NCBI GenBank assembly: GCA_001872455.1
Contig: MNXJ01000062.1
Span: 1-43,540 of the forward strand
Source: Anaerolineae bacterium CG2_30_57_67
GTDB taxonomy: Bacteria; Chloroflexota; Anaerolineae; Anaerolineales; Villigracilaceae
Direction: 5' to 3'
DNA: 43,540 nucleotides
Below are positions 6,225 to 34,010 of the stretch, piece after piece. How positions within the stretch are numbered: the stretch's first letter is position 1; every line of letters starts with the position of its first letter. The notes under the pieces were generated by a model that made no database searches, was not told the DNA's origin, and worked only from the letters and a program-made list of their open reading frames with translations. Made by a program: the position numbers and the translations under genes.

Positions 6225-6241
6225 GTGCATACCTCAGTGAA

Positions 6242-6348
6242 AATGATGAATGATGAATAGCAAATTATGAATGATGAGCAATGAATGATGAATGATCATT
6301 CCGCATTCTTCATTCTGCATTCCGCGTTTTCATCATTTTGCATTCAAA
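6242..6348. repeat. Heptamer array with mid-point inversion, nuoL-nuoM junction
   Basis: Eight units related to AATGATG (6242-6297: AATGATG, AATGATG, AATAGCA, AATTATG, and so on) switch without loss of phase into units of the opposite sense related to ATTCNNC (6298-6325: ATTCCGC, ATTCTTC, ATTCTGC, ATTCCGC), then irregular ATTTTGC and ATTCAAA units. Thus the left half can pair with the right half. The array runs into the last codons of nuoL (residues NAK and stop at 6333). It fills essentially all of the only large gap inside the nuo operon. Confidence 0.9.
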
Positions 6349-10894: not shown

Positions 10895-13453
10895 TTATGC
10901 CTTTTCTGCGGCGTGTAATTTGACCAGCGCGGGAGCGGAAATCGCCAGCCCCATGCTGCGCGGGATTAAGACCACCCCGGTGGAAATAGAGGCGTCCAGC
11001 GCGGCCCGGAAGGTAAACTGCGCCCCATTGATTTCCACGGAAAGTTGGTCGCCAGCCCCCAGGCCGAGTTTTTCAACGGTGACGGGGTGCAGCGCGGCGA
11101 CGGCGCTGCGCTCAATGTGCGCCGAAAGCAGTTTGGCCGGGGCGACGGTTGCGCCCAAGTCGTACAGTTTGGTGACCGGCACGGCGAGAAATTCATTTTC
11201 TTTGGGGCGCAGACCGGAGACGGTTGACGATTGACGGTCGGCCTTTGGCTGAAGCGCCAGCGTGACACCCAGCCCCAGTTTATTTTCGTAACTCGTGCCG
11301 CCATAATACAAATCACTGCGGCCAATCAGCGGCCACTGTTCGGCGGGTTGGGAAAGCGTCTCGTAGGAGACTCCGCTGAAGGCGGGTTCCGCCGTCGAAA
11401 GTCGATTCATCACCAGCAGCGGGGAACGCCCTTCGAGCGCGATGCCGCAGCCTTTGGCGACTTCGGCCAGCAGGGCAAAATCGGCTTTGGTGCCGGGGCG
11501 CGTCGGAACCGCCGGGTAAAAACGCTGAACGCGGCGCTCGCCGTTGGTGTAGGTTCCTTCGCGCTCGGTAAATGCGGCAGCGGGCAAAACAACGTCAGCC
11601 AGTTTAACGGTTTTGGTCGTCAAAATATCCTGCGCGATGACGGTTTTGGCCGCTTTGAGCGCTTCGGCCAGGGCCGGGTCGTCGCCCGCCGGGTCGGCGG
11701 CGATAACGTAGACGGTTTTTCCGGCCAATTCAGCCGCCAGATTTTCCGCCGGGCGGAAGCCCATTTCCAGCGCGCCCTGCTGATTGGGGGTTGACCAGAC
11801 GCCGATAAGGCCGGTGTTCGATTTTCTGGTTGTCCGATTTTCCGGTTGTTCGGTTGTTCGGTCTTCCGGTTGTTCAGTTGTTCGGTCTTCCGGTTTTCCG
11901 GTTAACTGCTCAACCGGGAAACTGGCTGACTGGCTAACTGGAGAACCGGTTAACTGGCTAACTGGAGAAATGGAGAACAGCTCCGCGCAAGACTGGGCAA
12001 GGGCTGTCGTTCCGGCCAGGCCGAGACCGTCCGAACCGTAGAAAATCATCAGATTGTTGGCATTTTTAATCGCTTCGCCAATTTTATCTTTGGCGGGCAG
12101 CGCCTGGATGGTTGCCACTTCGTCGCCGTAGGCGTAGCGCACCACGAAACTGGCGAATTCATCCAGCTTGGTAGCGCGGGCGGCGGCGACGATGAGCGTG
12201 GCGCCGCGCTGGGCGGCAGCCTTCAGACGCAGATGCCAGAGCGGGGCTTCATTGTATAAATCGGAGGCCGCCACCAGCACGGTATCACCTTTGCCCAAAG
12301 CGCCCAGGTCGGCGCCGGAGGTCAGTCCGTAGGCGGTGGTGAATTCTCCGCCGCCGTGCTGCGTGTACAGGTAGGTTTTGGCGTGGAGCGCGGCGGCCAA
12401 CTGTTTGAGCGTGAACAAATCTTCGTTGGCGAGACGCCCGCTCGCCAGGAAAACCGTCTCCGATTGGGATTCGACCAGTTTGGCGACGGCCTGGCCGACA
12501 GCGGCGTCGAGCCCGGCGGGAGTCGCCATCAACCGCGATTCGGCTTCGGTGTACTGATAACCGGCGAAGCGCCCCTTGTCGCACATCCAGATTTCGTTGA
12601 CTTGTTCATTCTGGCGCGGCATGACGCGCTTGATGACGTAGCCGCCGCCGGCTTTGGCTTCGCGGCGGACGTTGAAGGTGACGTTGCAGCCGACCGGACA
12701 CTGCGAGCAGACCGAGGCGGCCTGCTTCAACTCCCAAGGGCGGGCGCCGAAGCGAAAATCGGCAGTGGTCAGCGCACCCACCGGGCAGATGTCGCTGGTG
12801 TTGCCGCTGAAAATCGAGTCAAAGCCGGGTTCGCCGTAGGTGACGATGTCGGTGTTGCGCCCGCGCTGGTAGAAACCGAGCACGGGTTCACCGGCGATGA
12901 TGTCTTGGAAGCGGATGCAGCGCGCGCATTGGATGCAGCGCTCGCGGTCGAGAAAAATCAGGTCGCCGAGCGGGACGTGCTTTTCGGCGCGGTGTTTTTC
13001 GTCGAAGATGAAGCGGCTCTCATCGGCGGCGTGTTCCATCGTCAGGTTTTGCAGGGGGCATTCGCCGCCCTTGTCGCAGACCGGGCAGTCGAGCGGGTGC
13101 GAGGTCAGCAGCAGTTCGAGAATTTCTTTTTGGCCGCTTTTGGCTTTGGCGGTTTCGGTGAAGACCGCCATGCCTTCAGAGACGGGGTTGGTGCAGGCGG
13201 TTTCGAGTTTGGGCATGAATTGCAGTTTGGGCGAGCCATCTTCATTGAGCACGGGCTGACCAGTGGCGCGGTCCACCATCGGACGGCCAATTTCCACCAG
13301 GCACTGGCGGCACATGCCGACCGGTTCCATTTTGGGGTGGTAGCAAAAGACCGGGATGTCAATGCCAATTTTTTTGGCGGCGTCCACCACCAGCGTGCCC
13401 GCCGGGACGGTGACGGGCGTTCCATTAATTGTAAGGTTAATCAGTTTTGCCAT
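10895..13453 (-). CDS. nuoG: NADH-quinone oxidoreductase subunit G, with octamer-encoded insert
   Basis: This 852-residue molybdopterin-oxidoreductase-like subunit holds the N1b, N5 and N4 clusters. Ligands visible include CYHPKMEPVGMCRQC, HPLDCPVCDKGGECPLQN, CIQCARCIRFQ and CSQCPVGCNVTF, followed by a degenerate molybdopterin domain with no evident active site. About residues 492-547 are unlike any NuoG sequence I know: a Ser/Pro/Thr/Gln/Arg-rich tract (SPVSQLTGSPVSQ ... TTEQPEDRTTEQPENRTT) encoded exactly by 21 consecutive 8-mers. The frame stays open on both sides and the C-terminal domain continues normally, so the gene appears functional with an extra disordered loop. Gap to nuoF is 4 bases. 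Confidence 0.94.
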   Translation of the reverse strand: MAKLINLTINGTPVTVPAGTLVVDAAKKIGIDIPVFCYHPKMEPVGMCRQCLVEIGRPMVDRATGQPVLNEDGSPKLQFMPKLETACTNPVSEGMAVFTETAKAKSGQKEILELLLTSHPLDCPVCDKGGECPLQNLTMEHAADESRFIFDEKHRAEKHVPLGDLIFLDRERCIQCARCIRFQDIIAGEPVLGFYQRGRNTDIVTYGEPGFDSIFSGNTSDICPVGALTTADFRFGARPWELKQAASVCSQCPVGCNVTFNVRREAKAGGGYVIKRVMPRQNEQVNEIWMCDKGRFAGYQYTEAESRLMATPAGLDAAVGQAVAKLVESQSETVFLASGRLANEDLFTLKQLAAALHAKTYLYTQHGGGEFTTAYGLTSGADLGALGKGDTVLVAASDLYNEAPLWHLRLKAAAQRGATLIVAAARATKLDEFASFVVRYAYGDEVATIQALPAKDKIGEAIKNANNLMIFYGSDGLGLAGTTALAQSCAELFSISPVSQLTGSPVSQSASFPVEQLTGKPEDRTTEQPEDRTTEQPENRTTRKSNTGLIGVWSTPNQQGALEMGFRPAENLAAELAGKTVYVIAADPAGDDPALAEALKAAKTVIAQDILTTKTVKLADVVLPAAAFTEREGTYTNGERRVQRFYPAVPTRPGTKADFALLAEVAKGCGIALEGRSPLLVMNRLSTAEPAFSGVSYETLSQPAEQWPLIGRSDLYYGGTSYENKLGLGVTLALQPKADRQSSTVSGLRPKENEFLAVPVTKLYDLGATVAPAKLLSAHIERSAVAALHPVTVEKLGLGAGDQLSVEINGAQFTFRAALDASISTGVVLIPRSMGLAISAPALVKLHAAEKA
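11811..11978. repeat. 21-unit octamer array inside nuoG
   Basis: Twenty-one consecutive 8-base units fill 168 bases (56 codons) with no loss of phase. The first part is CGGTTGTT/CGGTCTTC-like. After the GGTTAAC at about 11900 the sense flips to TGGCTAAC/TGGAGAAC-like units, giving a large imperfect foldback. Three octamers make eight codons, so the reading frame is kept, and the peptide repeats with an eight-residue period. The same octamer family occurs at 20900-20955 and 22799-22862. Confidence 0.93.
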
Positions 13454-20998: not shown

Positions 20999-23900
20999 AT
21001 GTCCGATTACCTGTTCCGCGGTTCGCTGGCCGACCTTGACCCCGATGTGTACAAGCTAACCCAACTCGAAGCCGAGCGTCAGGCGCGAAAAATCATTCTC
21101 ATCGCCTCCGAAAGCCAGGCGCCACTGGCCGTGCGCGAAGCGATGGGCTCCGCCTTCCAGAACATCTACGCCGAAGGCTACCCCGAAGACGAATGGCGCA
21201 AAATGGCCGAAGCCGACCTGCTGGATTACCCCGCCCGCCTGGCCGAATATCGCCGCCGCGGCGACCCACGCTACTACAAAGGCGTCGAATATGCGGACGT
21301 GGTCGAAAGCCTGGCCTGCCGCCGCGCCGCCGAAGTTTTCGCCGCCAACGGCATCAAACCGGAACAACTCTTCGTCAACGTCCAGCCGCTTTCGGGCGGC
21401 CCGGCCAACAACGCCGTCTATCAAGCGCTCGTCCCGCTCGGAGAAACCATCCTGGGCATGAACCTGCTGCACGGCGGGCATCTTTCGCACGGCTCCTCCG
21501 TCAATCGCTCTGGCAAATGGTTCAAGGCCGTCCACTACGCCGTGGACCCCCAAACCGAAAAAATTGACTACGACAAAGTGCGCGCCCTGGCGCTGGAAAA
21601 CAAGCCCAAACTGCTGATTGCGGGCGCCTCGTCCTACTCGTGGGTTCCCGACTGGAAAAAGTTCCGCGAAATCGCTGACGAAGTTGGCGCCATTTTCCTG
21701 GCCGACATTTCGCACCTGGGCGGGCTGGTCGCCGCGGGCGTCGTCCCCTCGCCGGTTGGCTACGCGCACGTCGTCATGACCACCACCCACAAAAGCCTCG
21801 ACGGCCCGCGCGGCGCGATTCTGCTGACCACCGACGCCAGCATCGCCAAAAAACTCGACAAAGCCGTCTTCCCCGGCGAGCAGGGCGGGCCGCACGTTCA
21901 CATCTTCGCCGCCCTGGCGCTCACCTTCAAACTGGCGCAAACCGAACAATTCAAAAAACTGCAGACGCAAACCCTCAAAAACGCCGCCGCCATGGCCGAC
22001 CAGTTCCAAAAACGCGGCTTGCGCGTACCCTTCGGCGGCACCGACACCCACCTCGTCAACGTAGACTGCACCAGCGTCAAATCACCTGACACCACTGCGG
22101 GTGCAGGTGGAGTATCCCTCTCCGGCGACATGGCCGCCCGCATCCTCGACCTGGTCGGCATCGTCGTCAATCGCAACACCATCCCCGGCGACAAATCCGC
22201 CCTCGACCCCAGCGGCATCCGCCTCGGCACACCCTGGATTTCTCAGCGCGGATTCAACGAAAGCCAAACCCGCGCCCTGACCGACATCATGGCCGACGTG
22301 TTGCTGGCCTGCGCCCCGCACGCCGTCGAAACCGTGCGCAAAGGCAAAGTGCGCCGCGCCAAACTGGATTGGAACCTGCTCAACGACGCCCGTCTCAAAG
22401 TACGCGCCCTGGCCGAACAAGCAGGCGTGGATTTTGACTACCAGAAATCTGCCTACCCGCACTTCTTTTATGTGGATGATGTCTCCGCCAGCGGCGTCTT
22501 CACCCTCGAGGGGAATCGCGTCCGCCAATTTTTAGACTACGCTGTCAGCGCCGACCTTTCCGCGCTGAAGCCTGGTTCCGTTACCGAAACCGAAATCGCC
22601 CTGCCGGGAAAAACCATCCGCGGCGAACTGGCCTGCCTGGCCGAGGGCCGCTACCAGTTGGCCGTTCCCGCCGCCGAAGCGGGCCTGGCCGCCACCTGGC
22701 TGCGCGACCTTTCGGACGCCTACACCTCCCTGCGTCTCGACGGCCAGCCCGATTTCGACGCCGCGCGCCTGCCGGGGCCGGTCATCGTTGCCGAAAGCCA
22801 GTTGTCCAGTTCTCCAGTTGTCCAGTTAACTGGACAACCGGACAACCGGAAAACCGAAAAACCCTGGTACATCGGTGTTAAGTCGGGCAGCGGCGCGGCC
22901 AAACCCGCTTTCAGTTGGCTGGAAAGCGAGGGCGCGCTGAAACGCACCAGCCTGTACGAAATCCACAAATCCCTGGGCGGACGGCTGGTACCGTTTGCCG
23001 GTTGGGAAATGCCGGTGCAGTATACCGGCGTCAAAGAGGAACATCTCGCCACGCGCCAGGCGGCGGGACTGTTCGATGTCAGCCACATGGGCGTGTACGA
23101 AGTGCTGGGGCGCGACGCGGCCTCGTTTTTGGACACCGTCTGCGGCAACGACTGCGGCGGCCTGCTGCCCGGCGAAAGCCTGTACAGCCACTTTTTGACC
23201 CCCGACGCCGATGTGATTGACGACACGCTCATCTACCGGCGCGGCGCAGAGAAGTTTTTGGTGGTGGTCAACGCCTCCAACGATGACAAAGACCGCACCT
23301 GGCTGGAAAGCGTGCGCGACGGCGCGGTGAAAATTGACAACGCTCGCCCCGGCGCGCGCACCTACGGCTACGAGGCCGTCATCCGCAACTTGCGCGCCCC
23401 GCAAGCGGGCAACGATATGCGCGTGGACATCGCCCTGCAAGGCCCCAAAAGCCGCGATATTCTGCTGGCGATGGGCGTGGACGCGGAAACCAAAAAGCGC
23501 ATCATGAAGTTGAAGCGCACCGAATTATGTGACGCGGTGGTGGGCGGCTTCGACCTGATTGTCTCGCGCACCGGCTACACCGGCGAAAAGATGGCCTTTG
23601 AGCTGTTCGTCCACCCCGACCGCGCGCCGGAATTCTGGAACGCGGTTCTGGCGGCGGGCGAAAAATTCGGCGTCAAGCCGATTGGTCTGGGCGCGCGCGA
23701 CAGCCTGCGCACCGAAGCCGGTCTGCCGCTCTACGGCCACGAGATGGGGCTTGGCTCTGGCAAATTCGGCGAGCGCGATTTGGGCGTGGCCGAAGGCGGT
23801 TTTGGCTCGTATGTCAAACCCTACAAACCCTGGTTCATCGGGCGCGAGGCCTTCATCGCCCGCGAAGCGGCGCGCAAAGGCGTGGTGATTCGCTTCCGCT

Positions 23901-24178
23901 TCACCGAGCAGGGCGTGCGCATGGCGCATAACAGTGACCCGGTGGTGGACAAAAAAGGCAAAGTCATCGGCTGGGTGACAAGCTGCTCGCTGGACAGCCA
24001 GGGCTACCTGACCGGCGAAGCGTTTGTGACGCTGGCAAATGCCGTCGAAGGCACGCCCATCTTCATTTACCAGGGTTCGCCCAAAGACGCAGGCAAAGCC
24101 CCCGCCGAAATGACCCTGGCCGATAAGGGCATTCTGCCCGGCGCAGCGCTGGTGGTAAGCAGATTTCCAAAATTATAG
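20999..24178 (+). CDS. glyA-gcvT: Serine hydroxymethyltransferase-aminomethyltransferase (GlyA-GcvT) fusion
   Basis: ATG 20999 is chosen because AGGAG lies just upstream; the frame extends further but only through the repeat array. The 1059-residue protein begins with a PLP-dependent SHMT (ILIASESQAP, IYAEGYP, LADISHLGGLVAAG, PLP lysine K265 in TTTHKSLDGPRG). The SHMT carries an insertion of about 40 residues after YAEGYP. A middle segment (about 490-590, GVFTLEGNRVRQFLDY) faintly resembles a GcvT-type folate domain. An octamer-encoded linker (about 601-622) leads to a complete GcvT domain (LVPFAGWEMPVQYTG, FDVSHMG, RTGYTGEKMAFELF). The two activities interconvert serine, glycine and methylene-tetrahydrofolate, so the fusion could channel the folate one-carbon unit. 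GcvP and GcvH are not in this window. Confidence 0.9.
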   Translation: MSDYLFRGSLADLDPDVYKLTQLEAERQARKIILIASESQAPLAVREAMGSAFQNIYAEGYPEDEWRKMAEADLLDYPARLAEYRRRGDPRYYKGVEYADVVESLACRRAAEVFAANGIKPEQLFVNVQPLSGGPANNAVYQALVPLGETILGMNLLHGGHLSHGSSVNRSGKWFKAVHYAVDPQTEKIDYDKVRALALENKPKLLIAGASSYSWVPDWKKFREIADEVGAIFLADISHLGGLVAAGVVPSPVGYAHVVMTTTHKSLDGPRGAILLTTDASIAKKLDKAVFPGEQGGPHVHIFAALALTFKLAQTEQFKKLQTQTLKNAAAMADQFQKRGLRVPFGGTDTHLVNVDCTSVKSPDTTAGAGGVSLSGDMAARILDLVGIVVNRNTIPGDKSALDPSGIRLGTPWISQRGFNESQTRALTDIMADVLLACAPHAVETVRKGKVRRAKLDWNLLNDARLKVRALAEQAGVDFDYQKSAYPHFFYVDDVSASGVFTLEGNRVRQFLDYAVSADLSALKPGSVTETEIALPGKTIRGELACLAEGRYQLAVPAAEAGLAATWLRDLSDAYTSLRLDGQPDFDAARLPGPVIVAESQLSSSPVVQLTGQPDNRKTEKPWYIGVKSGSGAAKPAFSWLESEGALKRTSLYEIHKSLGGRLVPFAGWEMPVQYTGVKEEHLATRQAAGLFDVSHMGVYEVLGRDAASFLDTVCGNDCGGLLPGESLYSHFLTPDADVIDDTLIYRRGAEKFLVVVNASNDDKDRTWLESVRDGAVKIDNARPGARTYGYEAVIRNLRAPQAGNDMRVDIALQGPKSRDILLAMGVDAETKKRIMKLKRTELCDAVVGGFDLIVSRTGYTGEKMAFELFVHPDRAPEFWNAVLAAGEKFGVKPIGLGARDSLRTEAGLPLYGHEMGLGSGKFGERDLGVAEGGFGSYVKPYKPWFIGREAFIAREAARKGVVIRFRFTEQGVRMAHNSDPVVDKKGKVIGWVTSCSLDSQGYLTGEAFVTLANAVEGTPIFIYQGSPKDAGKAPAEMTLADKGILPGAALVVSRFPKL
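22799..22862. repeat. Eight-unit octamer array encoding the GlyA-GcvT linker
   Basis: CAGTTGTC, CAGTTCTC, CAGTTGTC, CAGTTAAC, TGGACAAC, CGGACAAC, CGGAAAAC, CGAAAAAC: eight units in strict phase, with sense inverted at the central GTTAAC, so the DNA or RNA can form a long hairpin. It is translated in frame as a Ser/Gln/Pro/Asn-rich linker of about 22 residues between the two enzyme halves. Confidence 0.92.
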
Positions 24179-33906: not shown

Positions 33907-33933
33907 GAGGTCTCCGGGGAAGGGGGGGGCGGT

Positions 33934-34010
33934 TGTCAGGTGTCAGTTGCCAGTTGTCAGTTATCAGTCGTCAGTGACTCTGATTACTGCTCACTTCTCA
34001 CTGACTCGTC
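33934..34010. repeat. Heptamer array, rlmB-pgi junction
   Basis: TGTCAGG, TGTCAGT, TGCCAGT, TGTCAGT, TATCAGT, CGTCAGT run in strict 7-base phase (33934-33975), followed from about 33976 by opposite-sense units (CTCACTT, CTCACTG). The inverted part encodes the final residues of RlmB (RVSEK) and its TGA stop at 33991. It fills the whole gap between the two genes. Confidence 0.85.

Follow-up and report, generated by a model that had tools for sequence, protein, structure and literature searches.

An in-frame octamer array in nuoG is one copy of a satellite dispersed through an Anaerolineae genome

An array of 8-bp units lies in frame within nuoG, and the family to which its units belong is a lineage-specific dispersed satellite. 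Units of this family take the form (CCRGTTNN)n, often followed by the inverted form (NNAACYGG)m, and approximately 70 arrays are scattered through the genome (G000). The nuoG array is one copy of this satellite, with the unit CCRGTTNN, and the element is probably close to neutral, a piece of selfish DNA that does not serve NuoG. The window (the whole stretch of 43,540 nucleotides analysed here) is contig C63 of G000, a genome of 2.99 Mb in 87 contigs that is 98% complete.

Results

The nuoG array is a bipartite insertion in a variable loop

The nuoG array is real, in frame and far beyond chance: the self-identity of 11811-11978 at a lag of 8 is 0.68, against a maximum of 0.40 among 5000 dinucleotide shuffles. 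Its host protein carries four Pfam domains of NuoG (PF00384, Molybdopterin, at residues 329-667; PF22117; PF10588; PF13510) and scores 451.7 bits with NCBIfam NuoG TIGR01973, for which the curated cut-off is 470. A NuoG match was present in 60 of the 61 genomes searched, the nearest relatives belonged to Anaerolineales/Anaerolineae (Chloroflexota), and a fold search with a model of the protein ranked structures of complex I subunit G/3 first.

The original prediction described exactly 21 octamers inside the molybdopterin domain, with the frame unbroken on both sides. We confirmed the location in PF00384 and the intact frame within the 852-residue reading frame. The count agrees with the length of the array (21 x 8 = 168), but the outermost unit (11811-11818) consists of native codons, its sense sequence AAC ACC GGC (N-T-G) aligning with AAC AAC GGA (N-N-G) of orthologues, and the array is bipartite. 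Read in the mRNA sense, CCRGTTNN units give SPVSQLTGSPVSQSASFPVEQLTG, and inverse NNAACYGG units then give KPEDRTTEQPEDRTTEQPENRTT (Table 1). The 8-residue period TTEQPEDR TTEQPENR is present as described, but it covers one arm only, the other arm encoding SPVSQLTG. The idea of a one-off, head-to-tail insertion did not hold: the array belongs to a dispersed family and is built as an inverted pair of arms.

Table 1. Features of the window, with positions counted from its first letter
Feature	Position	Strand	Evidence or remarks
nuoG (NADH-quinone oxidoreductase subunit G), 852 aa, with in-frame array	10895..13453	-	translation, Pfam, NCBIfam
Bipartite octamer array in nuoG	11811..11978	-	encodes SPVSQLTG... 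then KPEDRTTEQPEDRTTEQPENRTT
nuoG array, 5' arm (mRNA sense): CCAGTT-type units, SPVSQL peptide	11904..11978	-	AACYGG-type on + strand
nuoG array, 3' arm (mRNA sense): AACCGG-type units, QPEDRTTE peptide	11819..11903	-	CCGGTT-type on + strand, degenerate
SHMT-GcvT fusion gene with second in-frame array	20999..24178	+	Pfam PF00464, PF01571; relatives
Bipartite in-frame array (CCAGTTNN)4 then (AACYGGNN)4, centre CCAGTTAACTGG	22798..22862	+	variable stretch before GcvT domain
Spacer array, 6 units, shortly upstream of SHMT-GcvT start codon	20899..20944	+	

Comparison with orthologues bore out the proposal that NuoG, a core respiratory subunit, has taken up a repeat insertion. The array peptide was absent from every NuoG orthologue compared (an alignment of about 70 rows, in which some genomes appear twice, and a second comparison), and no homologous peptide stands at this site, G015 having at most a two-unit relic. 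The interval from CAEL to GLIGVW comprises 55 residues in the G000 protein and mostly 10-16 in orthologues, and the net gain of the loop is 39-45 residues (40 residues, or 120 bp, relative to G004 and G015). In an AlphaFold model built on a 32-sequence alignment (mean pLDDT only 65, but about 90 for much of the core on either side), residues 499-542, which follow a helix (479-495) and precede a strand (548-551), have pLDDT values of 33-39. The insert replaces a naturally variable loop and is predicted to be disordered. At the corresponding site of G015 nuoG (L094/L010), LPVSQT is encoded by CCAGTTTACCGGTCTCC, approximately two degenerate octamers, which is possibly a seed or a relic of an array.

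The octamer arrays form a dispersed family with many genic hosts

A BLAST search with the nuoG array found 55 places in G000, and an exact 22-bp three-unit pattern gave 189 matches compared with 3 for a reversed control pattern. Of the 67 arrays that we examined, 17 are genic and 50 are not, most of the latter occupying spacers whose two neighbouring genes run in the same direction; this census is a lower bound, drawn from stretches around arrays rather than from the whole genome, and genic arrays were recognised in it by the open gene frame. Array lengths range from about 22 to 421 bp, without shared ends.

In addition to nuoG, the in-frame hosts encode SHMT-GcvT, PurL (two arrays), an ABC ATPase, a capsule-type protein, an ADH-MocA fusion, GlyQS, an E2 acyltransferase and GatB. 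NAD-dependent DNA ligase (LigA) has two in-frame arrays, in loops of the adenylation-domain region, and DNA polymerase III alpha (DnaE) likewise has two. A xanthine-dehydrogenase-like gene has one array inside and another at a contig break. Orthologue comparison showed that the sites in LigA, SHMT-GcvT and DnaE are length-variable loops or linkers in relatives, and the nuoG-array peptide itself recurs in unrelated G000 proteins.

Several further observations concern these hosts. The xanthine-dehydrogenase-like gene is apparently split within an array, with 31 units at the end of C1 (L129) and 21 at the start of C4 (L149); this second array appears to break the assembly and may be longer in G000 than assembled. 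The second ligA loop has a different repetitive peptide in G019 (L261; NHPTPQLPNHPTSRP), which suggests that it is also used by another repeat family. The dnaE genes of G002 (C27), G019 (C111), G020 (C34) and G107 (C21) show, near residue 587 or residue 740, in-frame alignment gaps that measure about 1.1-1.2 kb; these segments, each in one long open frame, look like inteins.

Other repeats were also noticed. The window contains a perfect 84-bp tandem duplication (1212-1380; 2.0 copies, 100%), with an apparent inverted repeat within the unit, and a heptamer array of the AATGATG type (6241-6296). Companion arrays with a 7-bp unit of the CAGTNNN type were seen in the window (33932-33975) and at the G000 loci L129 (3052-3083), L195 (274-312) and L199 (2415-2460); some of them abut or lie near octamer arrays, and the one in L129 is in frame within the xanthine-dehydrogenase-like protein. 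Heptamer-like arrays of the ATTCATC and CTAATTC types also border octamer arrays.

The family is restricted to one lineage

The octamer pattern occurred in 6 of 152 genomes of the taxonomic family (189 matches in G000, 42 in G036, 10 in G107, 9 in G028, 2 in G001 and 1 in G003), and outside it a 400-genome sample of the phylum yielded two single matches only. With a single consensus arrayed in tandem at numerous places and confined to a lineage, the octamers have the hallmarks of a dispersed prokaryotic satellite family. Short arrays of the same type were found at positions occupied in G000 in genomes of other genera, namely SHMT-GcvT in G107 and both ADH-MocA and DnaE in G028, and same-genus relatives were without arrays at the nuoG, ligA and SHMT-GcvT sites. 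The shared positions suggest that some sites may not be random but old or favoured, either inherited and then expanded in G000 or repeatedly chosen. The open-access literature that we searched contained no description of the octamer family, an absence that is weak evidence of novelty.

Genic arrays show a 24-bp superperiod

Eight is not divisible by three, and for this reason a series of units encodes one low-complexity peptide of 8 residues in any of the three frames; the array is stop-free provided that the variable bases make no TAA, TAG or TGA. Judged from its sequence, the octamer array is nearly frame-agnostic, and stops would arise from the variable bases alone. In the 17 genic arrays, we counted 0 stops in the gene frame, a value that is partly zero by construction because these arrays were recognised by their open frame, and 12 and 49 in the other two sense frames. 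The 50 non-genic arrays had 42-61 stops in each of six frames.

Selection on unit number had been thought visible in the nuoG array itself. One array is uninformative on this point, because any intact gene has frame-preserving indels; a three-unit superperiod is, however, present in genic arrays genome-wide. Identical units recurred in these arrays with frequencies of 0.073 at lag 1, 0.054 at lag 2, 0.287 at lag 3 and 0.312 at lag 6, and recurrence in non-genic arrays was flat (0.196, 0.194 and 0.230 at lags 1-3). The lag-3 contrast was significant for genic arrays (P<0.0005; P=0.06 for the others), as was the difference between the two classes (P=0.0005). Stop avoidance was rejected as its sole cause, since stop-free reshuffles gave a contrast of 0.029 (sd 0.029) compared with the observed 0.224, and the contrast persisted when the long dnaE and xanthine-dehydrogenase-like arrays were left out. 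The probability that a random order of units is stop-free was 0.042 for a nuoG arm, 0.010 for a dnaE arm and 0.006 for an arm of the xanthine-dehydrogenase-like array. Recurrence at lag 3 therefore implies growth in 24-bp steps, selection at the amino-acid level, or both. Genic arrays appear to grow in three-unit (24-bp) steps that keep the protein readable, and they should be translated as floppy linkers.

Arm order is invariant and base choice depends on the strand

At every junction between arms, CCRGTT units precede AACYGG units (all 21 junctions of G000 and all 6 of its relatives), so that the order is convergent in 27 cases and divergent in none. The clusters of G000 comprise these 21 bipartite junctions and 46 clusters of a single orientation, and the spacing at the junctions varies, with no single fixed centre.

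In the sense of transcription, which for spacer arrays was assigned from the co-directional neighbour genes, the 5' arm favours CCAGTT and the 3' arm favours AACCGG (an A/C bias). The A:G unit counts of the 5' and 3' arms were 66:28 and 12:82 in genic arrays, and 115:43 and 44:88 in spacer arrays. For this arm bias we prefer Fisher tests at the array level (P=0.0004 and 0.006), because units within one array are not independent. The bias gives the sense strand A.C mismatches where the antisense strand has G.U pairs, and for 16 of the 19 bipartite arrays the predicted hairpin of the sense RNA was the weaker one (Wilcoxon P=8×10−4); the nuoG array has predicted values of -48.5 (sense) versus -78.4 kcal/mol (antisense). 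We read the strand bias as selection against mRNA hairpins, and transcription-linked mutation bias is a possible alternative source.

Origin and spread of the arrays

The most probable account of these arrays, in our judgement, is a near-neutral satellite that forms by slippage, disperses by presumed template switching and is kept only where frame and fold survive. The arrays would grow by replication slippage and would spread probably from copy to copy, through either template switching or ectopic gene conversion. Those that break a frame or a fold would be purged, and those that survive in genes would yield disordered linkers that leave the enzyme largely unaffected. All ten spacer arrays tested separate two distinct genes (flanking ORF pairs compared by Pfam), for example argG and argH; one pair consists of two class-III aminotransferases, each complete enough for a gene of its own. 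The idea that spacer arrays disrupt genes was accordingly rejected. Because these ten all separate genes and only a quarter of the arrays are genic, purifying selection is suggested. Against this account, simple slippage predicts neither the strict arm order nor the strand-specific A/C bias, and the same gene positions are occupied in other genera.

More tentatively, the satellite might actively copy itself to new loci without transposase or reverse transcriptase, through directional template switching that always leaves converging arms, its all-frame unit invading essential genes and supplying them with linkers.

It is unlikely that the arrays have a selected host function, as an mRNA- or protein-level device (linker, regulator or binding site). 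Their concentration in operon spacers and linkers, the convergent arm order, the sense-strand bias that weakens the hairpin and the recurrence of gene positions in other genera would all suit such a device, but unit number and length vary freely and same-genus relatives lack the arrays at three host sites. Furthermore, the strand bias points to the avoidance of a harmful hairpin and not to the use of one.

We also think it improbable that the arrays are a non-autonomous mobile element, similar to MITEs, REPs or Rickettsia palindromic elements, that relies on a transposase or a reverse transcriptase for its movement. Dozens of dispersed copies with a single consensus, the inverted-repeat organisation and in-frame copies in unrelated genes, the last as known for Rickettsia palindromic elements (PMC10969869), are what such an element would show. 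Against it stand the variable length, the predominance of one-armed copies and the fact that no transposon-like ends, shared ends or target duplications were visible at the arrays. Our survey of movers covered RVT_1 and Y1_Tnp. No RVT_1 was found in G000 (98% complete), G036 or G107, all of which carry arrays, and the single Y1_Tnp protein of G000 (a 563-aa frame) belongs to a type that nearly every relative tested also has, with or without arrays; a reverse transcriptase or Y1 transposase is thus not supported as the mover. A plasmid or phage origin was rejected: there was no plasmid match, and two viral contigs held only short CCGGTTTT runs that are probably unrelated.

Finally, a native NuoG domain of some wider group, to which the LPVSQT stretch of G015 might belong, is very improbable, as all other orthologues compared carry an unrelated short loop and the same peptide occurs in unrelated G000 proteins; the orthologue alignments rule out a conserved domain and leave an old two-unit seed at the site as a possibility.

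Discussion

An insertion in an essential gene is commonly assumed to be either rare or lethal. In G000, a single 8-bp repeat lies in frame in genes of complex I and purine synthesis and in those for a replicative polymerase subunit, a DNA ligase, a tRNA synthetase and an amidotransferase, amounting to some 17 natural insertion experiments in one genome that mark tolerated loops. A non-triplet repeat can be coding because a stop-poor unit yields the same peptide in every frame, and the 24-bp superperiod offers a simple readout of translation-level selection. These arrays also reopen the question of how satellites disperse without an evident mobile element, which was raised for satellites of Chloroflexus and Leptospira (PMC6749651).

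Systems that depend on a Y1 transposase or a reverse transcriptase do not match the octamer family: a Y1 transposase tracking the repeats, as in REP/BIME-RAYT, was not found in G000, and the three array-carrying genomes searched lack the RVT_1 domain expected of a group II intron, DGR or retron-like system. The STRR of cyanobacteria are heptamer, non-triplet tandem repeats scattered mostly between genes. The octamer arrays share this intergenic scatter and differ in unit (8 bp versus 7 bp) and sequence; heptamer-like arrays also occur beside the octamers in G000. Within the same phylum, Fam_1_14_23 is a short satellite scattered in Chloroflexus aurantiacus and presumed to have transposed (PMC6749651), and like it the octamers form short-unit tandem arrays scattered in one genome. 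That survey counts as coding those satellites whose unit length is divisible by three, whereas here an 8-bp unit codes, its frame being kept via 24-bp steps.

Coding inverted repeats are known from the mitochondria of Nematomorpha, where palindromes lie in protein genes and both arms are translated (PMC6649704). Those repeats are perfect and encode conserved residues, whereas the octamer arms have diverged from each other and show weak pairing in the sense strand, and their peptides are low-complexity linkers. Rickettsia palindromic elements are described in later papers (PMC10969869, PMC6649704) as selfish DNA that lies in frame in many unrelated housekeeping genes and is apparently tolerated. 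The octamer arrays resemble these elements in being dispersed and in frame in unrelated genes (17 genic arrays), and they may in part share the palindromic organisation, which the 21 convergent junctions show and the 46 clusters of a single orientation do not. The Rickettsia elements form families of units that are roughly constant in length (about 150 bp) and have family-specific ends; the octamer arrays have neither constant length nor fixed ends, are often one-armed and, unlike those elements, encode one peptide whichever frame applies. Taken together, the octamer family combines the character of dispersed prokaryotic satellites (PMC6749651) with the in-frame tolerance of Rickettsia palindromic elements (PMC10969869).
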